A stretch of DNA of 64,000 bases from Streptomyces lunaelactis (GTDB lineage Bacteria; Actinomycetota; Actinomycetes; Streptomycetales; Streptomycetaceae). Positions 30,753-35,849 of this stretch are shown here, piece by piece. Each line of letters begins with the position of its first letter. Positions within the stretch are counted from its first letter, which is position 1. Location of the stretch: the NCBI RefSeq assembly GCF_003054555.1, contig NZ_CP026304.1:4650001-4714000 (forward strand), written 5' to 3'. The notes below the pieces were generated by a model that searched no databases, had not been told where the DNA came from, and saw only the letters and a list, made by a program, of their open reading frames with translations. Made by a program: the position numbers and the translations under genes.

Positions 30753-32279
30753 TCAGCCCTCGCCGCAGATCCGCAGTCCCTTCGGCGTCGCACAGGGCAG
30801 ATGGCCGTGCGTGGTGATGATGTCCTGTCCGTTGCCCCGGCTCATATAGCCGAGGAAGCTCGAGGCGAGTGAGTCGGCGGGCGGCTGGCCGTAGGTGTAC
30901 GCGTACTCGATCTCCCGGTACGGGTACCCGCTCTCGCCGATGTCGTCCACGGACGGCGGCTCCCCGTCGATGTCCAGCCGGTGCAGGCCCTTGAGCCCGC
31001 TCCCGGCGCGCAGTTCGCTGTAGCCGATCGCTCCCGGCAGCCGGGCCACGGTGTTCAGCACCTGCTCCGTGCTGTCCAGTTCGCACCGTACGACCTTGGC
31101 CTCGCCGTCGTCCTTGCTCTCGCAGTCGCGCGAGGAGTTCGCGGGCTCGTTCCGCAGCAGCACCCGGCGCTGGAACACCTCGCGGGTACCCGAGTTGGCG
31201 TCCCTGCTCACCAGCAGTACGGGCATCTCGGGCCCGCCCAGCTGCTTCCAGTTGTTGATCTCCCCGCGGTAAAGCCTGCGTACGTCCTCCGTCGACAGAT
31301 TCCGCACCGGCACCTTGTCGTTGACGACGAGTGCGAAGACGGAGACGGCGACGCGGTTCTCGCGCAGCTGCGGATAGCCGCCGGGCTTGGGCCCGTCGGC
31401 GAGGGCGATCAGCGCGGGGGAGCCGTTCTTGGCCTGTGCGCCGGCCTCCGCGAGCGCTCTTATCCCGGCGGTGCTGCCATGGGCGTCGACGATGACGGTG
31501 GAGCCGTCGCAGTCCTTCTCGTACTTCTTCGCCAGCTCCTTCACCACGGGGGCGAAAGCGGTCGAACCGGTCAGTGTCAGCGTGCCCTTGGCGCAGCCGA
31601 TCGGCGGCCGGGTGTCGTCCCGTACGACGATGATCGCGGCGAGCGTGACCACACAGGCGGTCAGCAGCACGGTGATCCAGCGGGCCGCCCGGCTGAACAG
31701 CGGGGCCTTGTCGTCGGGCGTCGTACTGCGGTTGGGCATCACATCGCCGTCCCGGATGCCGCCGGTGACCTTGACCTCGCAGCCGATGGGGCCGCCGGTG
31801 AGCAGCACCAGCAGCTTGAAGTGATGGCCGCGATTGAGCGGGACGCGGGGGATGTGGATCGTGCTGCCGCTGTGCCGCATGCCCGCCGCGGGCGTGAAGT
31901 GGTCCATCAGATGCTCGGCGCCGGGCGGCTGGGTGACGGCGATGGCCCGCACGGTCCGGCCGACGAACTCGGCGGTCAGGCCGTGGATTTCACGCCCGGT
32001 GTAGTCGTCGCCCGCGATGCTCTGCGAGCCGTCGTTCTCGATGCGCAGCAGTACGAGCGTGGCGTCGGACATCTCCGGGGCCTCATTGAACAGCCCGAGC
32101 CGGAAGTTGGGCCGCCCGGCGCGGACGTCGCTCCCGATCGGGGTGTCCAACTGGACGCGGTACCCGATGCGCTTGCGGCGGGGCACGCGGCGCTCGTAAT
32201 AGAGCACGGCGGCGGAAGCCAGGATGCCGAGCACGGCGGTGAGCACGGCAACGACGTTCTCGGCGCTGAGCCACTCCAC
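30753..32279 (-). CDS. Membrane-anchored PstS-like substrate-binding protein
   Basis: 508 residues. Two transmembrane segments: N-terminal (VVAVLTAVLGILASAAVLYY) and central (about 205-225, VLLTACVVTLAAIIVV). The region after the second reads LTLTGSTAFAPVVKELAKKY and SRDANSGTREVFQRR, the phosphate-binding-protein fold of PstS. The 160-residue intervening domain is unrecognised. No pstCAB genes are nearby, so transport is unlikely; a sensing or scavenging role is inferred. GTG 32279 has a strong GAGGAGA; the frame extends to ATG 32315 without better support. Confidence 0.82.
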   Translation of the reverse strand: MEWLSAENVVAVLTAVLGILASAAVLYYERRVPRRKRIGYRVQLDTPIGSDVRAGRPNFRLGLFNEAPEMSDATLVLLRIENDGSQSIAGDDYTGREIHGLTAEFVGRTVRAIAVTQPPGAEHLMDHFTPAAGMRHSGSTIHIPRVPLNRGHHFKLLVLLTGGPIGCEVKVTGGIRDGDVMPNRSTTPDDKAPLFSRAARWITVLLTACVVTLAAIIVVRDDTRPPIGCAKGTLTLTGSTAFAPVVKELAKKYEKDCDGSTVIVDAHGSTAGIRALAEAGAQAKNGSPALIALADGPKPGGYPQLRENRVAVSVFALVVNDKVPVRNLSTEDVRRLYRGEINNWKQLGGPEMPVLLVSRDANSGTREVFQRRVLLRNEPANSSRDCESKDDGEAKVVRCELDSTEQVLNTVARLPGAIGYSELRAGSGLKGLHRLDIDGEPPSVDDIGESGYPYREIEYAYTYGQPPADSLASSFLGYMSRGNGQDIITTHGHLPCATPKGLRICGEG

Positions 32280-32533
32280 GGGGTCTTCTCCTCGCACTCC
32301 TCGGCGGGGAGCCACGGTATGGAGGGGGCGGGTGGCGGGGGTGCGGTTTACCGGTTCGGACGCCGGATGTTCGCCGGTCGTTCAGGGCGTCACTCTGACG
32401 GGTGAATGGGGTCTCGATGGAGCGCCCGGCCCAACTCCAGTGCTGGCATAGTCCGTTGGCACATGCCCTCATCGGGGCGGATCCCTTGCAGGAACGGAGC
32501 TCCGTGACCATCACACTCGAACGCCCGGACACG

Positions 32534-32550
32534 GTATACCGCCGGTATAC
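32534..32550. promoter_or_regulatory. Palindromic operator GTATACC-GCC-GGTATAC
   Basis: Perfect 7-bp inverted repeat with 3-nt centre, 7 bp before the antitoxin ATG and overlapping a likely -10 (TATACT). Type II antitoxins usually repress their own promoter through such sites. Confidence 0.7.
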
Positions 32551-32557
32551 TGTGACC

Positions 32558-32824
32558 ATGGCTGACACCACGATCAAGGTCGACCCCGCCGTCCGGGACC
32601 GTCTGCTGGAGCTCGCTCGCGAGCGCGGGATGACCATGCGCGATCTGGTCGCGCAGCTCGCGGGCGCCACGCCCACCGAGGAAGAGCTCCAGAAGCGGTA
32701 CGAGGAGACCAAGTCGTACGTCGAGGAGCACTTCCTCGGCAGGCCGTACACGGAAGAGGACGAGAAGGCCGGCGAGCAGCTCTGGGCCGACCTGGAGGCC
32801 GGGCGCATCGGGGAGGTCCAGTGA
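32558..32824 (+). CDS. Antitoxin of a VapBC-like toxin-antitoxin pair
   Basis: 88 residues. The N-terminal half (TTIKVDPAVRDRLLELARERGMTMRDLVAQLAG) has ribbon-helix-helix character; the C-terminal half is acidic and helical (EELQKRYEETKSYVEEHFLG), as expected of a toxin-binding tail. A palindromic operator lies directly upstream and the toxin gene overlaps its stop by GTGA. Neutralisation of the toxin and autoregulation are inferred from this arrangement. Confidence 0.75.
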   Translation: MADTTIKVDPAVRDRLLELARERGMTMRDLVAQLAGATPTEEELQKRYEETKSYVEEHFLGRPYTEEDEKAGEQLWADLEAGRIGEVQ

Positions 32825-33258
32825 AGCCGGACAAGTACCCGCTGCCCAGCGCCGTCGTCTTCGACGACACCGCCGCCCTCGCACTCGGCGCGGGCAACAG
32901 CATGGCCTCGCGCCTCGTCACCGAGGCCGAGAAGAACCCCGCGCAGCGCGTCTACATCCCGGCTCTGTGCCTGACTGCCGCAGAGGCCGAACGCGCGGGC
33001 GTCGCCGAGCACATCGGAGCGCTGCCGTCCGTGGACATCGCGGCGCTGGACTTCGCCGGGGCCATGGCGGTCGGCAAGCAACTGCGCGCCGACGCGGACA
33101 CGGGCGACCCCGAGAAGGCGGAGAACGACTGGAGCGGCGCGCACGCGCTGCACCTGGCGCGGCCGTCCGTCGAGTGGCCTCGCGGCCGTCCGGTGCTGAC
33201 CCGGGCGCCTTCGCGGTACCGGGGCACAGGCATCCGGACGATCAGGATCGTCGAGTAG
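32821..33258 (+). CDS. PIN-domain-like toxin (VapC-like)
   Basis: 145 residues starting at GTG inside the antitoxin stop. PIN-like features: acidic N-terminal strand VVFDDTAALALG, ALCLTAAEAERAG (Glu in the second acidic position), DIAALDFAGAMAVGKQL and a terminal GRPVLTRAPSRYRG in place of the usual VTxDP. The last acidic residue is therefore not obvious and nuclease activity should not be assumed. Antitoxin coupling supports a toxin role. Immediately downstream begins a 0.84-kb palindromic region. Confidence 0.65.
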   Translation: MKPDKYPLPSAVVFDDTAALALGAGNSMASRLVTEAEKNPAQRVYIPALCLTAAEAERAGVAEHIGALPSVDIAALDFAGAMAVGKQLRADADTGDPEKAENDWSGAHALHLARPSVEWPRGRPVLTRAPSRYRGTGIRTIRIVE

Positions 33259-33346
33259 TACGGGTCGCGGGGCCCGGTTCGTGGCCGGGCCGGTTGGGCG
33301 GCGTCCTGGGTTCCTGGGCGGGCCGGTCTTGTCGGGGTTCTGGTGG

Positions 33347-34187
33347 GGCCGCCCTCTGGGTCTTGATGGTTGCGACTTCGGGCCGGGTGTCAAGGGCGCT
33401 CCTGCGTCGCGTCGGCTGCGCCGATTGCGCTGCGCTTCACCCTTGACTCCCGTCCCTGCGCCGCTGAAGGGGCCTTGGGAGGGCGGCCGGGGAGCGGGGC
33501 GGTCCGCTGCTCGCGCGCGGTGCGGCGCCGTGGCCGTCTGCGGCGCGGTTCGCCCTGCGGGGCTGCGCGGTAGTGGAGTGGGGTGACGCGGGCTGGCTTA
33601 GCGGCCGTCCGTCGGGGAGCAGTTGGCGTTCAGACCCTCGCTTCGGTGGGCGGGTGGAGCCCTCCGGTCCCGGCGAAGGGGCTGTCGGCGGCTGTCGGGC
33701 CGGTGGGGATGTGACGGGTGGGGTGTTGGGGCGGGTGTGGTGGCCCTGGACCTGATCCTGTACACGGATTCCGGCTCCACCGGAATCCGTGTACGGGATC
33801 TGTTCTGGCGGGGTCCCGGTGGCCCCGCCGGCTGTCCTGATGCCCCGCCGACCGGCCTCGTCCGGTACCGGAGGGGCGCCACCCGCCCACGGTAGCGAGG
33901 GTCTGAACGCCAACTGCCCTCCGGCGGGCGGTCGCTGAGCCGGGTCGCCACCACCCCATTCCACTGCTGCGCAGCCCCGCAGGGCGAACCCGGCCGCAGT
34001 CGCCGACGGCGAATCGCGCCCGACCACCCCTTGCGCCGACCCTTCCCCGGCCGCCCTCCCAAGGTCCCTTTCAGCGGCGCAGGGCGGGGGTCAGGGGTGG
34101 GCGGAGCCCATCGCGCAGCGACGCGACGCAGGAGCGCCCTTGACGCCCGGTCCGGAGCCGCGACCATCAAGAACCAGAGGGCGGCCC
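33347..34187. repeat. 0.84-kb imperfect giant palindrome, no gene
   Basis: The left arm starting GGGCCGCCCTCTGG (33347) is the reverse complement of the right arm ending CCAGAGGGCGGCCC (34187). Matching blocks continue inward: GTCAAGGGCGCTCCTGCGTC near 33390 against 34140, CCTTGGGAGGGCGGCCGGGG near 33472 against 34065, TTCGCCCTGCGGGGCTGCGC near 33549 against 33990, CAGTTGGCGTTCAGACC near 33620 against 33917. At the tip GTACACGGATTCCGG (33760-33774) pairs perfectly with 33780-33794 across CTCCA. Arms are about 420 bp and roughly 80-87% matched by eye. Reading frames inside have no recognisable product. Confidence 0.88.
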
Positions 34188-34195
34188 TTGGGTGA

Positions 34196-34450
34196 CTATG
34201 CGAGGCCGGGTCGGTGGAGTGCGTACGTGACGAAGGTCGACCAGGCGGCCGGGGTGACGGCGAGCTGGGGGCCGTCGGGGTTCTTGGAGTCGCGGACGTG
34301 GATGGCCTGGGGGCAGGTGGCGACCTCGACGCACTCGCCGCCGCTGGAGCTGCTGTGCGAGGACTTGCGCCAGTCGAAGGCGACCTCGACGCAGTCGCCG
34401 CCGCTGGGGTTGCTGTAGCTCGACTTGAACCATCGCAGGGTGTCGCTCAT
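34196..34450 (-). CDS. DUF397 protein with two tandem domains
   Basis: 84 residues holding two copies of the DUF397 signature: WFKSSYSNPSGGDCVEVA (7-24) and WRKSSHSSSSGGECVEVA (27-44), then VRDSKNPDGPQLAVTPAAW. Single-copy proteins of 60-65 residues are the rule, so the first half-domain is duplicated. ATG overlaps the upstream XRE-regulator stop by ATGA. In Streptomyces such small proteins pair with WhiJ/AbaA-like XRE regulators to control development or antibiotic production (known for relatives, inferred here). Confidence 0.9.
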   Translation of the reverse strand: MSDTLRWFKSSYSNPSGGDCVEVAFDWRKSSHSSSSGGECVEVATCPQAIHVRDSKNPDGPQLAVTPAAWSTFVTYALHRPGLA

Positions 34451-35283
34451 TGCTGGTCTCCTGCCAACCGCTCGATGAGGCCCAGCGATTCACGAGGACC
34501 CAGGGCCTGTGCCCGGATCTTCGCATATCGCTGGGCGTATGTACTCACCTTTGCGGGGTCCTTGATCAACAGGGCTTCCTCTTGGGGCTCCAGGTAGACC
34601 AGGTGGTCGTGCTCCGGAGTCTCCACCAGGTTCATCTCGCCATACGCGCCCGCGTGTTCGCCCATGAGTCCGCAGTCCAGGGGCAGCGCCTGGAGCGTGA
34701 CGTTGCGCCGCCGCCCGCACTCGACGAGGTACAGCAGTTGGGCGCGCATGACCTCCTCGCTCCCGATCGTCCGGCGCAGTACGGACTCCTCCAGGATTAG
34801 TTCGATCAGGGCGACTGGCTCCCGGTTGAAGAGCACCCGGCGGGACATCCTGGCCTCGACCAGCTCCTCCACCCGCTCCTCCGGCAGCGGCGGGTCCCCC
34901 CCGCCGATCAGCGCCCGCGCGTACTCCTCCGTCTGGAACAGCCCGTGCACGACGAGCGTCGCGTACAGCGACAACCCCACCGCCTTCTGCTCAAGTAACG
35001 CGTAGTTCTTGAACTGCGCCGGGTACTTGTCCAGCCGTACGTGCGTCCTCGCCTCCTCGAAGATCCCCGTCCCGCCCCCAAGCACCCTCTCCAGCTCCAC
35101 CAGCATCTGGTCGCTCGCGGGCTGCGCGCACGTCTCCATCGCGCTCACCGCCGCTCCCGTGAAGCCGATCTCGGACCCCAGCTGTTCTTGTGTCCATCCT
35201 TTCTGGACGCGCATATTGCGCGCGACATTCGCCACCAGACGCGTCGCCGGACCCGCCGTTTCCTTGTTCTCCGCACGTGCCAT
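34447..35283 (-). CDS. XRE-family regulator with DUF5753 (WhiJ-like), TTA codon
   Basis: 278 residues from ATG 35283. N-terminal helix-turn-helix (VAPxxNMRVQKGWTQEQLGSEIG-type, then AVSAMETCAQPAS), followed by the DUF5753 domain (YALLEQKAVGLSLYATLVVHGLFQTEEYARALI, LIELILEESVLRR, DPAKVSTYAQRYAKIRAQAL). Codon 96 (34998-34996) is TTA, so translation should need bldA. Coupled to the DUF397 gene. A 10-bp direct repeat lies upstream. A TTG at 35307 in frame is a weaker start. Confidence 0.92.
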   Translation of the reverse strand: MARAENKETAGPATRLVANVARNMRVQKGWTQEQLGSEIGFTGAAVSAMETCAQPASDQMLVELERVLGGGTGIFEEARTHVRLDKYPAQFKNYALLEQKAVGLSLYATLVVHGLFQTEEYARALIGGGDPPLPEERVEELVEARMSRRVLFNREPVALIELILEESVLRRTIGSEEVMRAQLLYLVECGRRRNVTLQALPLDCGLMGEHAGAYGEMNLVETPEHDHLVYLEPQEEALLIKDPAKVSTYAQRYAKIRAQALGPRESLGLIERLAGDQQ

Positions 35284-35300
35284 TTTGCGATCACCGCTCC

Positions 35301-35320
35301 GACTCAACCGGACTCAACCG
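35301..35320. promoter_or_regulatory. Direct repeat GACTCAACCG x2 upstream of XRE gene
   Basis: Two exact abutting 10-bp copies followed by the related GTCACAACCA, 18 bp upstream of the regulator start. Candidate autoregulatory operator. Confidence 0.5.
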
Positions 35321-35441
35321 GTCACAACCAGTACCCGCCGAATTCGACTCGCCCTAAAGGGAGTTCGGGCAGGTCAACCTATGCCCGACCCCCTCCTCGC
35401 AGTCATGGAAAACGCTAGCCAAGGTCACCCAGACTGTCCTT

Positions 35442-35849
35442 GTGGATACGCAAAGTCGCGAAGTAAACCTCGATTGGATTCCGGCTTCCGGATTCCAGCT
35501 CCGTAAGGCAGGCGTGCAATTCGACGCCGTCCGCGTCGACGACGAAGACGGCCGCCGCCTTGCCGATCTCCTGGAGCGGATGACCGGTGGCGATCCCGGC
35601 CCCGTCGTCATAGAGGCGTACGGGCGACGGTCGGTCTACTTCCTCGTGCCGCCCGGCAGCACCGCCCACCGCCCCTGGCCGCGCGGCGTCATCCGGCTCA
35701 ACTCGGGTCCGGCGCACGTGAGTTACATCCCCGTCCCCGCGCTCCGGGGCCGCACCTGGCCCCTGTCCTGGCGCTTTCCGCCGGTCGCCGCGGACCGGTT
35801 CGTACACCCGCTCCTCCTCCGTAACGCCGCCTGCGCGCTCTTGAGTTGA
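35442..35849 (+). CDS. Conserved hypothetical protein, divergent from XRE/DUF397
   Basis: 135 residues from GTG 35442. Stretches LDWIPASGFQLRKAGVQFDAVRVDD, MTGGDPGPVVIEAYGRRSVYFLVPPGS and VSYIPVPALRGRTWPLSWRFPP are familiar from streptomycete proteins encoded beside XRE/DUF397 pairs; the beginning recalls the N-terminal part of actinobacterial primase/polymerase-like proteins. No catalytic residues can be assigned. Divergent placement from the regulator pair makes it a likely target or partner. Confidence 0.75.
   Translation: MDTQSREVNLDWIPASGFQLRKAGVQFDAVRVDDEDGRRLADLLERMTGGDPGPVVIEAYGRRSVYFLVPPGSTAHRPWPRGVIRLNSGPAHVSYIPVPALRGRTWPLSWRFPPVAADRFVHPLLLRNAACALLS

Follow-up and report, generated by a model that had tools for sequence, protein, structure and literature searches.

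Frpo/ssi sequences, reportedly described by Masai and Arai in 1997, are single-stranded-DNA promoters of conjugative plasmids. MITEs and foldback elements are short, non-coding sequences with inverted ends that occur in many copies, are present in one relative and absent from another and occasionally carry cargo. REP/BIME repeats, which have RAYT (IS200-like) transposases, are palindromic, form inverted pairs and often lie at the 3' ends of genes. GNA triloops and tandem G.A pairs are known features of stable hairpins in single-stranded DNA. According to PMC11541004, the secondary structure of Frpo, a single-strand promoter, mimics a duplex, and early anti-defense genes are expressed from it. 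Gene activation on incoming DNA before the second strand is made appears to be known mainly from enterobacterial plasmids (PMC11541004), and the string "Actino" does not occur in the main text of that paper.

The element described here lies in the chromosome of Streptomyces lunaelactis, in a window of 64,000 nucleotides (contig NZ_CP026304.1, positions 4,650,001 to 4,714,000). Near the outer end of each of its two arms is a core of ~55 nt, in which an 8-bp stem closes three hairpins. The core resembles Frpo/ssi in having a predicted single-stranded secondary structure that would display -35 and -10 sequences, by which the transferred strand can be transcribed in the described systems, and possibly in its position, on some replicons, upstream of anti-restriction and other leading-region genes (PMC11541004). 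It differs from Frpo/ssi in being a four-way cloverleaf with GNA triloops, in its distribution over Actinobacteria and some Alphaproteobacteria and in occurring also as gene-less inverted pairs within chromosomes; its activity is a prediction. In the 3' overhang of Streptomyces telomeres, GCA loops are closed by sheared G:A pairs (PMC4513846), and the structural likeness extends to GCA-loop hairpins, sheared G.A pairs, an enclosing stem and single-stranded DNA, whereas the present element lies mid-chromosome and has three hairpins. EGeRS1, a multi-hairpin region of ~0.6 kb upstream of ardC and other establishment genes in plasmids of the pLS20 family, recalls the core in its position but not in its size, and its authors argue against a single-stranded-DNA promoter (PMC8708921).

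A long palindrome and its neighbors

When the region is aligned with its reverse complement, a single symmetric match appears, the long antidiagonal expected of a palindrome. The inverted repeat spans 33346-34187 with 83% identity over 803 ungapped columns, 78 gaps and a score of 624, against a background of 70 or less in fifteen other 3.8-kb pieces of the window. The two arms of about 420 bp that an earlier note had pointed out are real, but its statement that they are reverse complements over nearly their whole length was generous, because the arms are 83% alike with indels. The perfect hairpin at the tip is exactly 15 bp long, as the note had it, pairing 33760-33774 with 33780-33794 around the loop CTCCA. 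By inspection, the open reading frames within the stretch are not gene-like, in agreement with the view that no gene explains the palindrome. RNA from here is likewise predicted to form a very long hairpin, the modeled fold of 33346-34188 reaching -768.5 kcal/mol (z -33.8 relative to 20 shuffles). The Rfam 15 covariance models gave 0 matches at E<=1 in 32000-35500, and a strict scan found no transcription promoter in the window.

On the right, the WhiJ-like regulator pair named in the note is clear, with DUF397 (PF04149, 2.8e-33) and HTH_31/DUF5753 both recognized by Pfam; Streptomyces genomes are rich in such WhiJ/DUF397 pairs. The supposed toxin-antitoxin pair lacks firm Pfam support: its first protein has a sub-threshold RHH_4 match only, and for its second Pfam gives nothing at E<=0.1. 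The features of the element and its immediate neighbors, in window coordinates, are as follows.

33325..34190, no strand: whole element as held in common with copy c2 (C1:2.56 Mb), 99.4% over 868 aligned columns
33325-33345, no strand: segment of ~21 bp left of the palindrome inside the shared element, from the c2 alignment
33346..33774, plus: arm A, one repeat unit with its outer end on the left, from self-alignment
33780..34187, minus: arm B, the second unit, inverted, from self-alignment
33760..33794, no strand: 15-bp perfect tip hairpin with a 5-nt loop, from sequence
33389..33447, minus: core A, cloverleaf of an 8-bp outer stem and three GNA-triloop hairpins, 50.6 bits; structured strand is the minus strand
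34090..34144, plus: core B, cloverleaf like core A, 81.7 bits; structured strand is the plus strand
33388..33393, minus: -35-like TTGACA at the foot of core A, from sequence
33366..33371, minus: weak -10-like AACCAT (NANNNT) on the core A side, 16-nt spacer, from sequence
34140..34145, plus: -35-like TTGACG at the foot of core B, from sequence
34162..34167, plus: weak -10-like GACCAT (NANNNT) on the core B side, 16-nt spacer, from sequence
33347..33488, no strand: basal stem of arm A surrounding core A, from sequence, in which 33347-33354 GGCCGCCC is able to pair with 33481-33488 GGGCGGCC; the arm B counterpart folds
34199..34450, minus: neighboring DUF397 gene whose 3' end abuts the element, from open reading frame and Pfam
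32821..33258, plus: neighboring 145-aa open reading frame with its 3' end toward the element and no Pfam match

A dispersed repeat family

The palindrome consists of two head-to-head copies of a non-coding repeat that is dispersed in many Streptomyces genomes. This conclusion is well supported, and the repeat-family reading is very likely. The window genome holds two further copies, at 2.56 Mb (99%) and 3.96 Mb (92%), and all three are full palindromes with differing flanks. The alignment of the window copy with c2 extends slightly beyond the palindrome on the left before the flanks diverge. With the 841-bp stretch as query, some match at E<=0.001 occurs in 193 of 295 Streptomyces genomes, many of these matches being weak; a covariance model of the core finds matches at E<=1e-6 in 69 of 199. 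More than 20 core matches occur in four of the 199 genomes, the highest number being at least 28 in one genome. The piece shared within one genome is either a unit of ~350 bp (for example in G227 and G098) or the entire palindrome. Neighboring cores less than 4.5 kb apart stand in the same inverted order in 69 of 70 pairs, and the inverted pairs are spaced 502-3693 bp apart (median 1013). Since these 69 inverted pairs recur across many separate genomes, an assembly artifact is an unlikely source of the palindrome.

Among 101 fetched Streptomyces loci, 32 have a single core, some of them at contig ends, so single-arm copies, the search for which had been proposed, do exist. Of the three causes offered for the persistence of the palindrome, namely mobility, a duplicated repeat family or selection, the dispersed family with single units was borne out and selection on the giant hairpin was not. 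The best-ranked matches of a literature search contain no description of the repeat or the core.

Several origins were considered and set aside. The element resembles REP/BIME-RAYT systems in being palindromic, paired inversely and often placed at 3' gene ends, but its units are about ten times longer, and an origin from RAYT/IS200 was rejected because Y1_Tnp (PF01797) has 0 matches genome-wide in the window genome, control genomes being positive in 5 of 14 cases. A phage origin found no match in phage records, and none in viral contigs for one exact core pattern. Fused telomeres are contradicted by orientation, the structured strand running outward whereas a tail-to-tail fusion needs it to run toward the center, and by position, the copies lying mid-chromosome at 2.56, 3.96 and 4.68 Mb of an 8.40-Mb contig. 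Inspection of c1-c3 and of copies from five genomes showed no target-site duplication, the ends of the element being inexactly defined.

The window genome also has a seventh core, at 2494884-2494935 of its contig C1 (3885-3936 of locus L146), which is divergent and stands alone (40.7 bits). By eye, CACACT lies 15 nt past its TTGACG.

A conserved cloverleaf core

Selection is visible on the ~55-nt core, which is well supported; for the giant hairpin it finds no support. The arms were compared between six pairs of copies (c1-c3, c1-c2 and one pair each in G225, G162, G270 and G199). Twelve arm pairs had changed on both sides and still paired, 57 one-sided changes exchanged a standard pair and G.T, 41 mismatched positions gained pairing and 82 paired ones lost it. 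With so few compensatory changes, selection acting on the entire hairpin was dropped as an explanation. Changes that preserve pairing between the arms are rare, and the giant hairpin therefore probably arose as a by-product when a unit of ~0.4 kb was inverted.

Within the core the pattern is different. In the first set, all 66 unique cores could be split into an outer stem and three hairpins by a pattern that requires GNA-like loops. An alignment built on the covariance model, with hairpins parsed by script, has 88 rows (79 distinct, including other phyla and plasmids), in which 97.1% of cells pair. Two-sided changes are seen at 16 of 21 core pairs, where shuffles give 3.5 and slid controls 3-6, and in 74 cells, where shuffles give 11.5; these counts lean toward the tested structure, to which the alignment was fitted. 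When the best pairing is taken and GNA is not required, GNA loops close 242 of 243 hairpins in Streptomyces, 32 of 36 in a set of other cores (n=20, including the two Streptomyces loci L142 and L146) and 29 of 33 on plasmids. Unique cores that could not be parsed, 14 of 118, are left out of these loop counts and of the pair counts but retained in the -10 counts below.

Mismatches on the structured strand in Streptomyces are mostly G.A (213, against 14 C.T). The fold of one core strand is conserved by covariation, and neither wobble pairs nor folding energies tell single-stranded DNA from RNA. G.T and A.C wobble pairs number 10 and 7 in Streptomyces, 6 and 9 in the other set and 1 and 0 on plasmids. 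The structured strand is the more stable one by DNA energies in 58/81 Streptomyces, 15/20 other and 5/16 plasmid cores and by RNA energies in 45/81, 16/20 and 9/16; both kinds of energy barely separate the strands.

Promoter-like sequences beside the core

Read inward, the inner foot of the outer stem is TTGAC in every core of the first set, and the outer foot, read outward, is TTGAC, TTGAG, TTGAT or TTTAC. Both feet are TTGAC-like, and the inner side therefore serves as a built-in control. With a spacer of 15-19 nt, a -10-like NANNNT, a loose criterion, is found on the outer side in 80/82 cores of Streptomyces, 10/20 of the other set and 12/16 from plasmids, compared with 5.8, 1.7 and 1.5, respectively, when the outer flanks are shuffled. 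At the same spacing on the inner side it is found in 6/82, 0/20 and 0/16. These counts are not independent, because the cores are related. They show a directional promoter likeness, in that a loose sigma-70-like -35/-10 pair lies outside the core and not inside it. By eye, some plasmids have stronger promoter-like examples: Nocardia NBC_01327 has TTGACG-N16-TATCAT, and Kocuria pCE7 has TTGACT-N15-TATGCT.

Judging from sequence, we give an even chance to the reading that the element is non-autonomous and MITE-like, built from two inverted units of ~0.4 kb whose ends are putative single-stranded-DNA promoters of the Frpo type. For the core itself, the single-stranded-promoter reading is about evenly balanced. 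When the outward strand is single, it would fold into a cloverleaf of GNA-triloop hairpins atop a longer stem. This stem would display the -35 and -10 sequences, and RNA polymerase could start on the single-stranded DNA. The 3' arm would carry the -35/-10 sequences as non-template strand and the 5' arm would be the template; therefore the transcript would run inward. On plasmids, the core might let ardC-like genes be expressed early or might prime the second strand. The chromosomal element would have one such site near the 3' end of each strand, so that a single-stranded copy could be turned into a double strand, and the long-arm palindrome would be a by-product of the inverted arrangement. 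The middle between the two units may be empty, as in the window copy, or contain a gene. The function as a single strand, the mode of spread and any use to the host are what we infer from these patterns. Against the single-stranded-promoter reading, the -10 sequences of the window's own copy are weak and the strict scan gave no promoter there.

Cores on plasmids and in other genomes

Beyond Streptomyces, a phylum-wide search gave core matches in 43 of 296 genomes at E<=0.01, 15 of these at E<=1e-6. A plasmid search with the core as query returned 26 records, and the surroundings fetched for 16 of them all match the core model (16/16, 51.7-69.3 bits). Actinobacterial examples include Kocuria, Nocardia, Pseudonocardia, Arthrobacter, Curtobacterium and five Streptomyces plasmids, and alphaproteobacterial ones Acidiphilium, Sinorhizobium and Azospirillum. 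PLSDB types 20 of the 26 as non-mobilizable, 4 as mobilizable and 2 as conjugative; with most of them typed non-mobilizable, the single-stranded-promoter reading is weakened. In Acidiphilium (L220, 5988-6036) and Sinorhizobium (L221, 4989-5032) the plasmid cores lie near transposase genes.

In some cases the placement of cores on plasmids looks like the geometry of a Frpo-type single-stranded-DNA promoter. In Kocuria pCE7 an ArdC gene begins 242 bp after the core, and in a plasmid of S. subrutilus a MobF relaxase gene follows at 378 bp. The next gene is DUF6573 in N. farcinica, DUF6247 in M. methanotrophicum and an ArdC-like gene (PF08401) in two non-Streptomyces genomes, and in two Nocardia plasmids a PP2C gene lies next to the core. 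By plasmid annotation, 13 loci have an inward gene, and in 10 of them the nearest one points away from the core; this inward preference is slight, because the nearest outward gene reads away too, in 9 of 15.

In the other set, an SD-led reading frame begins within 160 bp of the core inward in 11 of 20 cases and outward in 1 of 20, the background at random points being 85/721. Eight of the 11 inward starts lie at 56-66 bp. For plasmid cores the corresponding counts are 3/16 inward and 1/16 outward, and for Streptomyces chromosomal cores 13/94 and 11/94. The lack of an inward excess in the last group, and the small excess on plasmids, speak against the single-stranded-promoter reading.

These starts also bear on the possibility that the core is a conventional duplex promoter reading outward, with the hairpins upstream of the -35 acting as a regulator site or a cruciform. 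The -35/-10 pair does read outward in duplex DNA, and the outward plasmid neighbors that read away from the core, for example ParA in S. jietaisiensis, fit such a promoter. The SD-led genes of the other set, however, start on the opposite side, and in Streptomyces a transcript leaving the core outward would enter the 3' ends of neighboring genes in antisense; these ends face the core in 57 of the 76 cases with an outer gene within 400 bp. We hold a duplex promoter to be distinctly unlikely.

The core could instead be a second-strand origin, as in rolling-circle plasmids, with no promoter function. A Curtobacterium plasmid of 1,579 bp with one annotated gene has a core, which favors such an origin. 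The directional conservation of the -10 and the clustering of gene starts near 60 bp would then each call for an extra explanation, and an origin alone is judged unlikely.

The link between the single-stranded-promoter reading and ardC is modest. Among 28 ArdC loci picked irrespective of the core, four have an upstream core match at E<=1e-5, in the predicted orientation, of which two were previously known and two are weak and alike; a fifth match (E 0.025) is not upstream. ArdC is present in 6 of 15 core-bearing genomes and in 26 of 296 overall (Fisher p 0.0007), but all six are from a single family, f9, and the co-occurrence may therefore reflect common ancestry; this restriction to one family weakens the single-stranded-promoter reading further. 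If that reading is true, a motif marking single-stranded-DNA promoters would make the question of early expression testable in Actinobacteria, and the core could point to anti-defense genes on actinobacterial plasmids.

In one genome outside the class of the window (G406; L138, 4181-7738), two tandem cores are separated by 3.5 kb, and a small SD-led gene follows ~60 bp after each.

Chromosomal setting, enclosed genes and turnover

Gene calls at the element loci come from our own codon-position script, which misses some small genes. Convergent genes border 29 of the 61 gaps that carry a core and 56 of the 341 other gaps of these loci. A second set comprises 36 loci with two cores, where the bordering genes are convergent in 11, tandem in 22 and divergent in 3. 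The first of these figures and the strong covariation of the core would be accounted for if the core were a structured RNA or a bidirectional transcription terminator between convergent genes. The low share of convergent sites in the second set does not fit, nor do the empty Rfam search and the window scan, which found no terminator-like U tract. The GNA-loop strand mostly runs antisense to the adjacent gene, and GNA triloops are typical of DNA mini-hairpins. An RNA or terminator is the least probable of the explanations weighed here.

The proteins flanking or enclosed by the element are diverse. A fixed partner gene was rejected, since the commonest family, DUF397, accounts for only 5 of 112 proteins scanned. 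In several genomes predicted genes of unrelated kinds are enclosed between two units, as in some copies of G173, G038, G083 and G006. The G173 copies with enclosed genes look like cargo cassettes. By eye, the proteins between the cores at L261-L268 of this genome appear to be HAD, GntR, GNAT, CYTH and phosphotransferase-like, differing by locus. A small related open reading frame (e.g. MSERYEYVPHQLLRHRVRDIASG...) recurs between the cores of five G173 loci. At a thiolase locus, the enclosed gene is oppositely oriented at the orthologous sites L077 (G227) and L090 (G269), as if recombination had occurred between the arms.

The element might be nothing other than an ordinary MITE or foldback transposon, its cores being terminal signals that a recombinase acting in trans recognizes, either folded or as duplex, and their promoter likeness incidental. 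It is short, non-coding and multi-copy, has inverted ends, differs in presence between species and in some copies encloses genes. It departs from such elements in that neither a target duplication nor a parent transposon was found (Y1_Tnp, absent from the window genome, being the one family searched genome-wide), in that single units stand alone and in that its ends are a covarying multi-hairpin structure. Plasmid cores standing alone beside genes and the frequent SD-led gene after cores of the other set also argue against an ordinary transposon, which we regard as possible though doubtful. That no transposase or relaxase is linked to the element (again with Y1_Tnp as the genome-wide search) also counts against the reading of a MITE-like element with single-stranded-promoter ends.

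A broader form of that reading, more tentative and rather doubtful as a whole, would give Actinobacteria single-stranded-DNA promoters of a cloverleaf class of their own, which some alphaproteobacterial plasmids share; Streptomyces chromosomes would be colonized by a gene-less element with one such promoter per strand 3' end, copying itself through a single-stranded intermediate and sometimes capturing a host gene. A gene-less multi-copy element in about one third of the sampled Streptomyces, sometimes enclosing genes, would be a route of gene movement that we have not found described.

Gain and loss can be followed at two sites. A conserved GGDEF gene precedes the first, which was selected for the two copies already known there; this site has core pairs in 3 of 30 genomes (G270, G162 and G225) and a core-less remnant in G249, and in the remaining genomes of the 30 no core was found within 1.5 kb. 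Some element sites are common to several species, which therefore indicates inheritance plus turnover. Upstream of the c2 site is a conserved P450 gene, which 64 of 120 related genomes have. The empty-site comparison proposed earlier could be made here: among 30 fetched loci, cores are present in the window genome only. A fragment of a serpin gene (L096, 5621-6154; profile positions 4-196 of 370) ends beside c2, at 2.56 Mb of the window genome.
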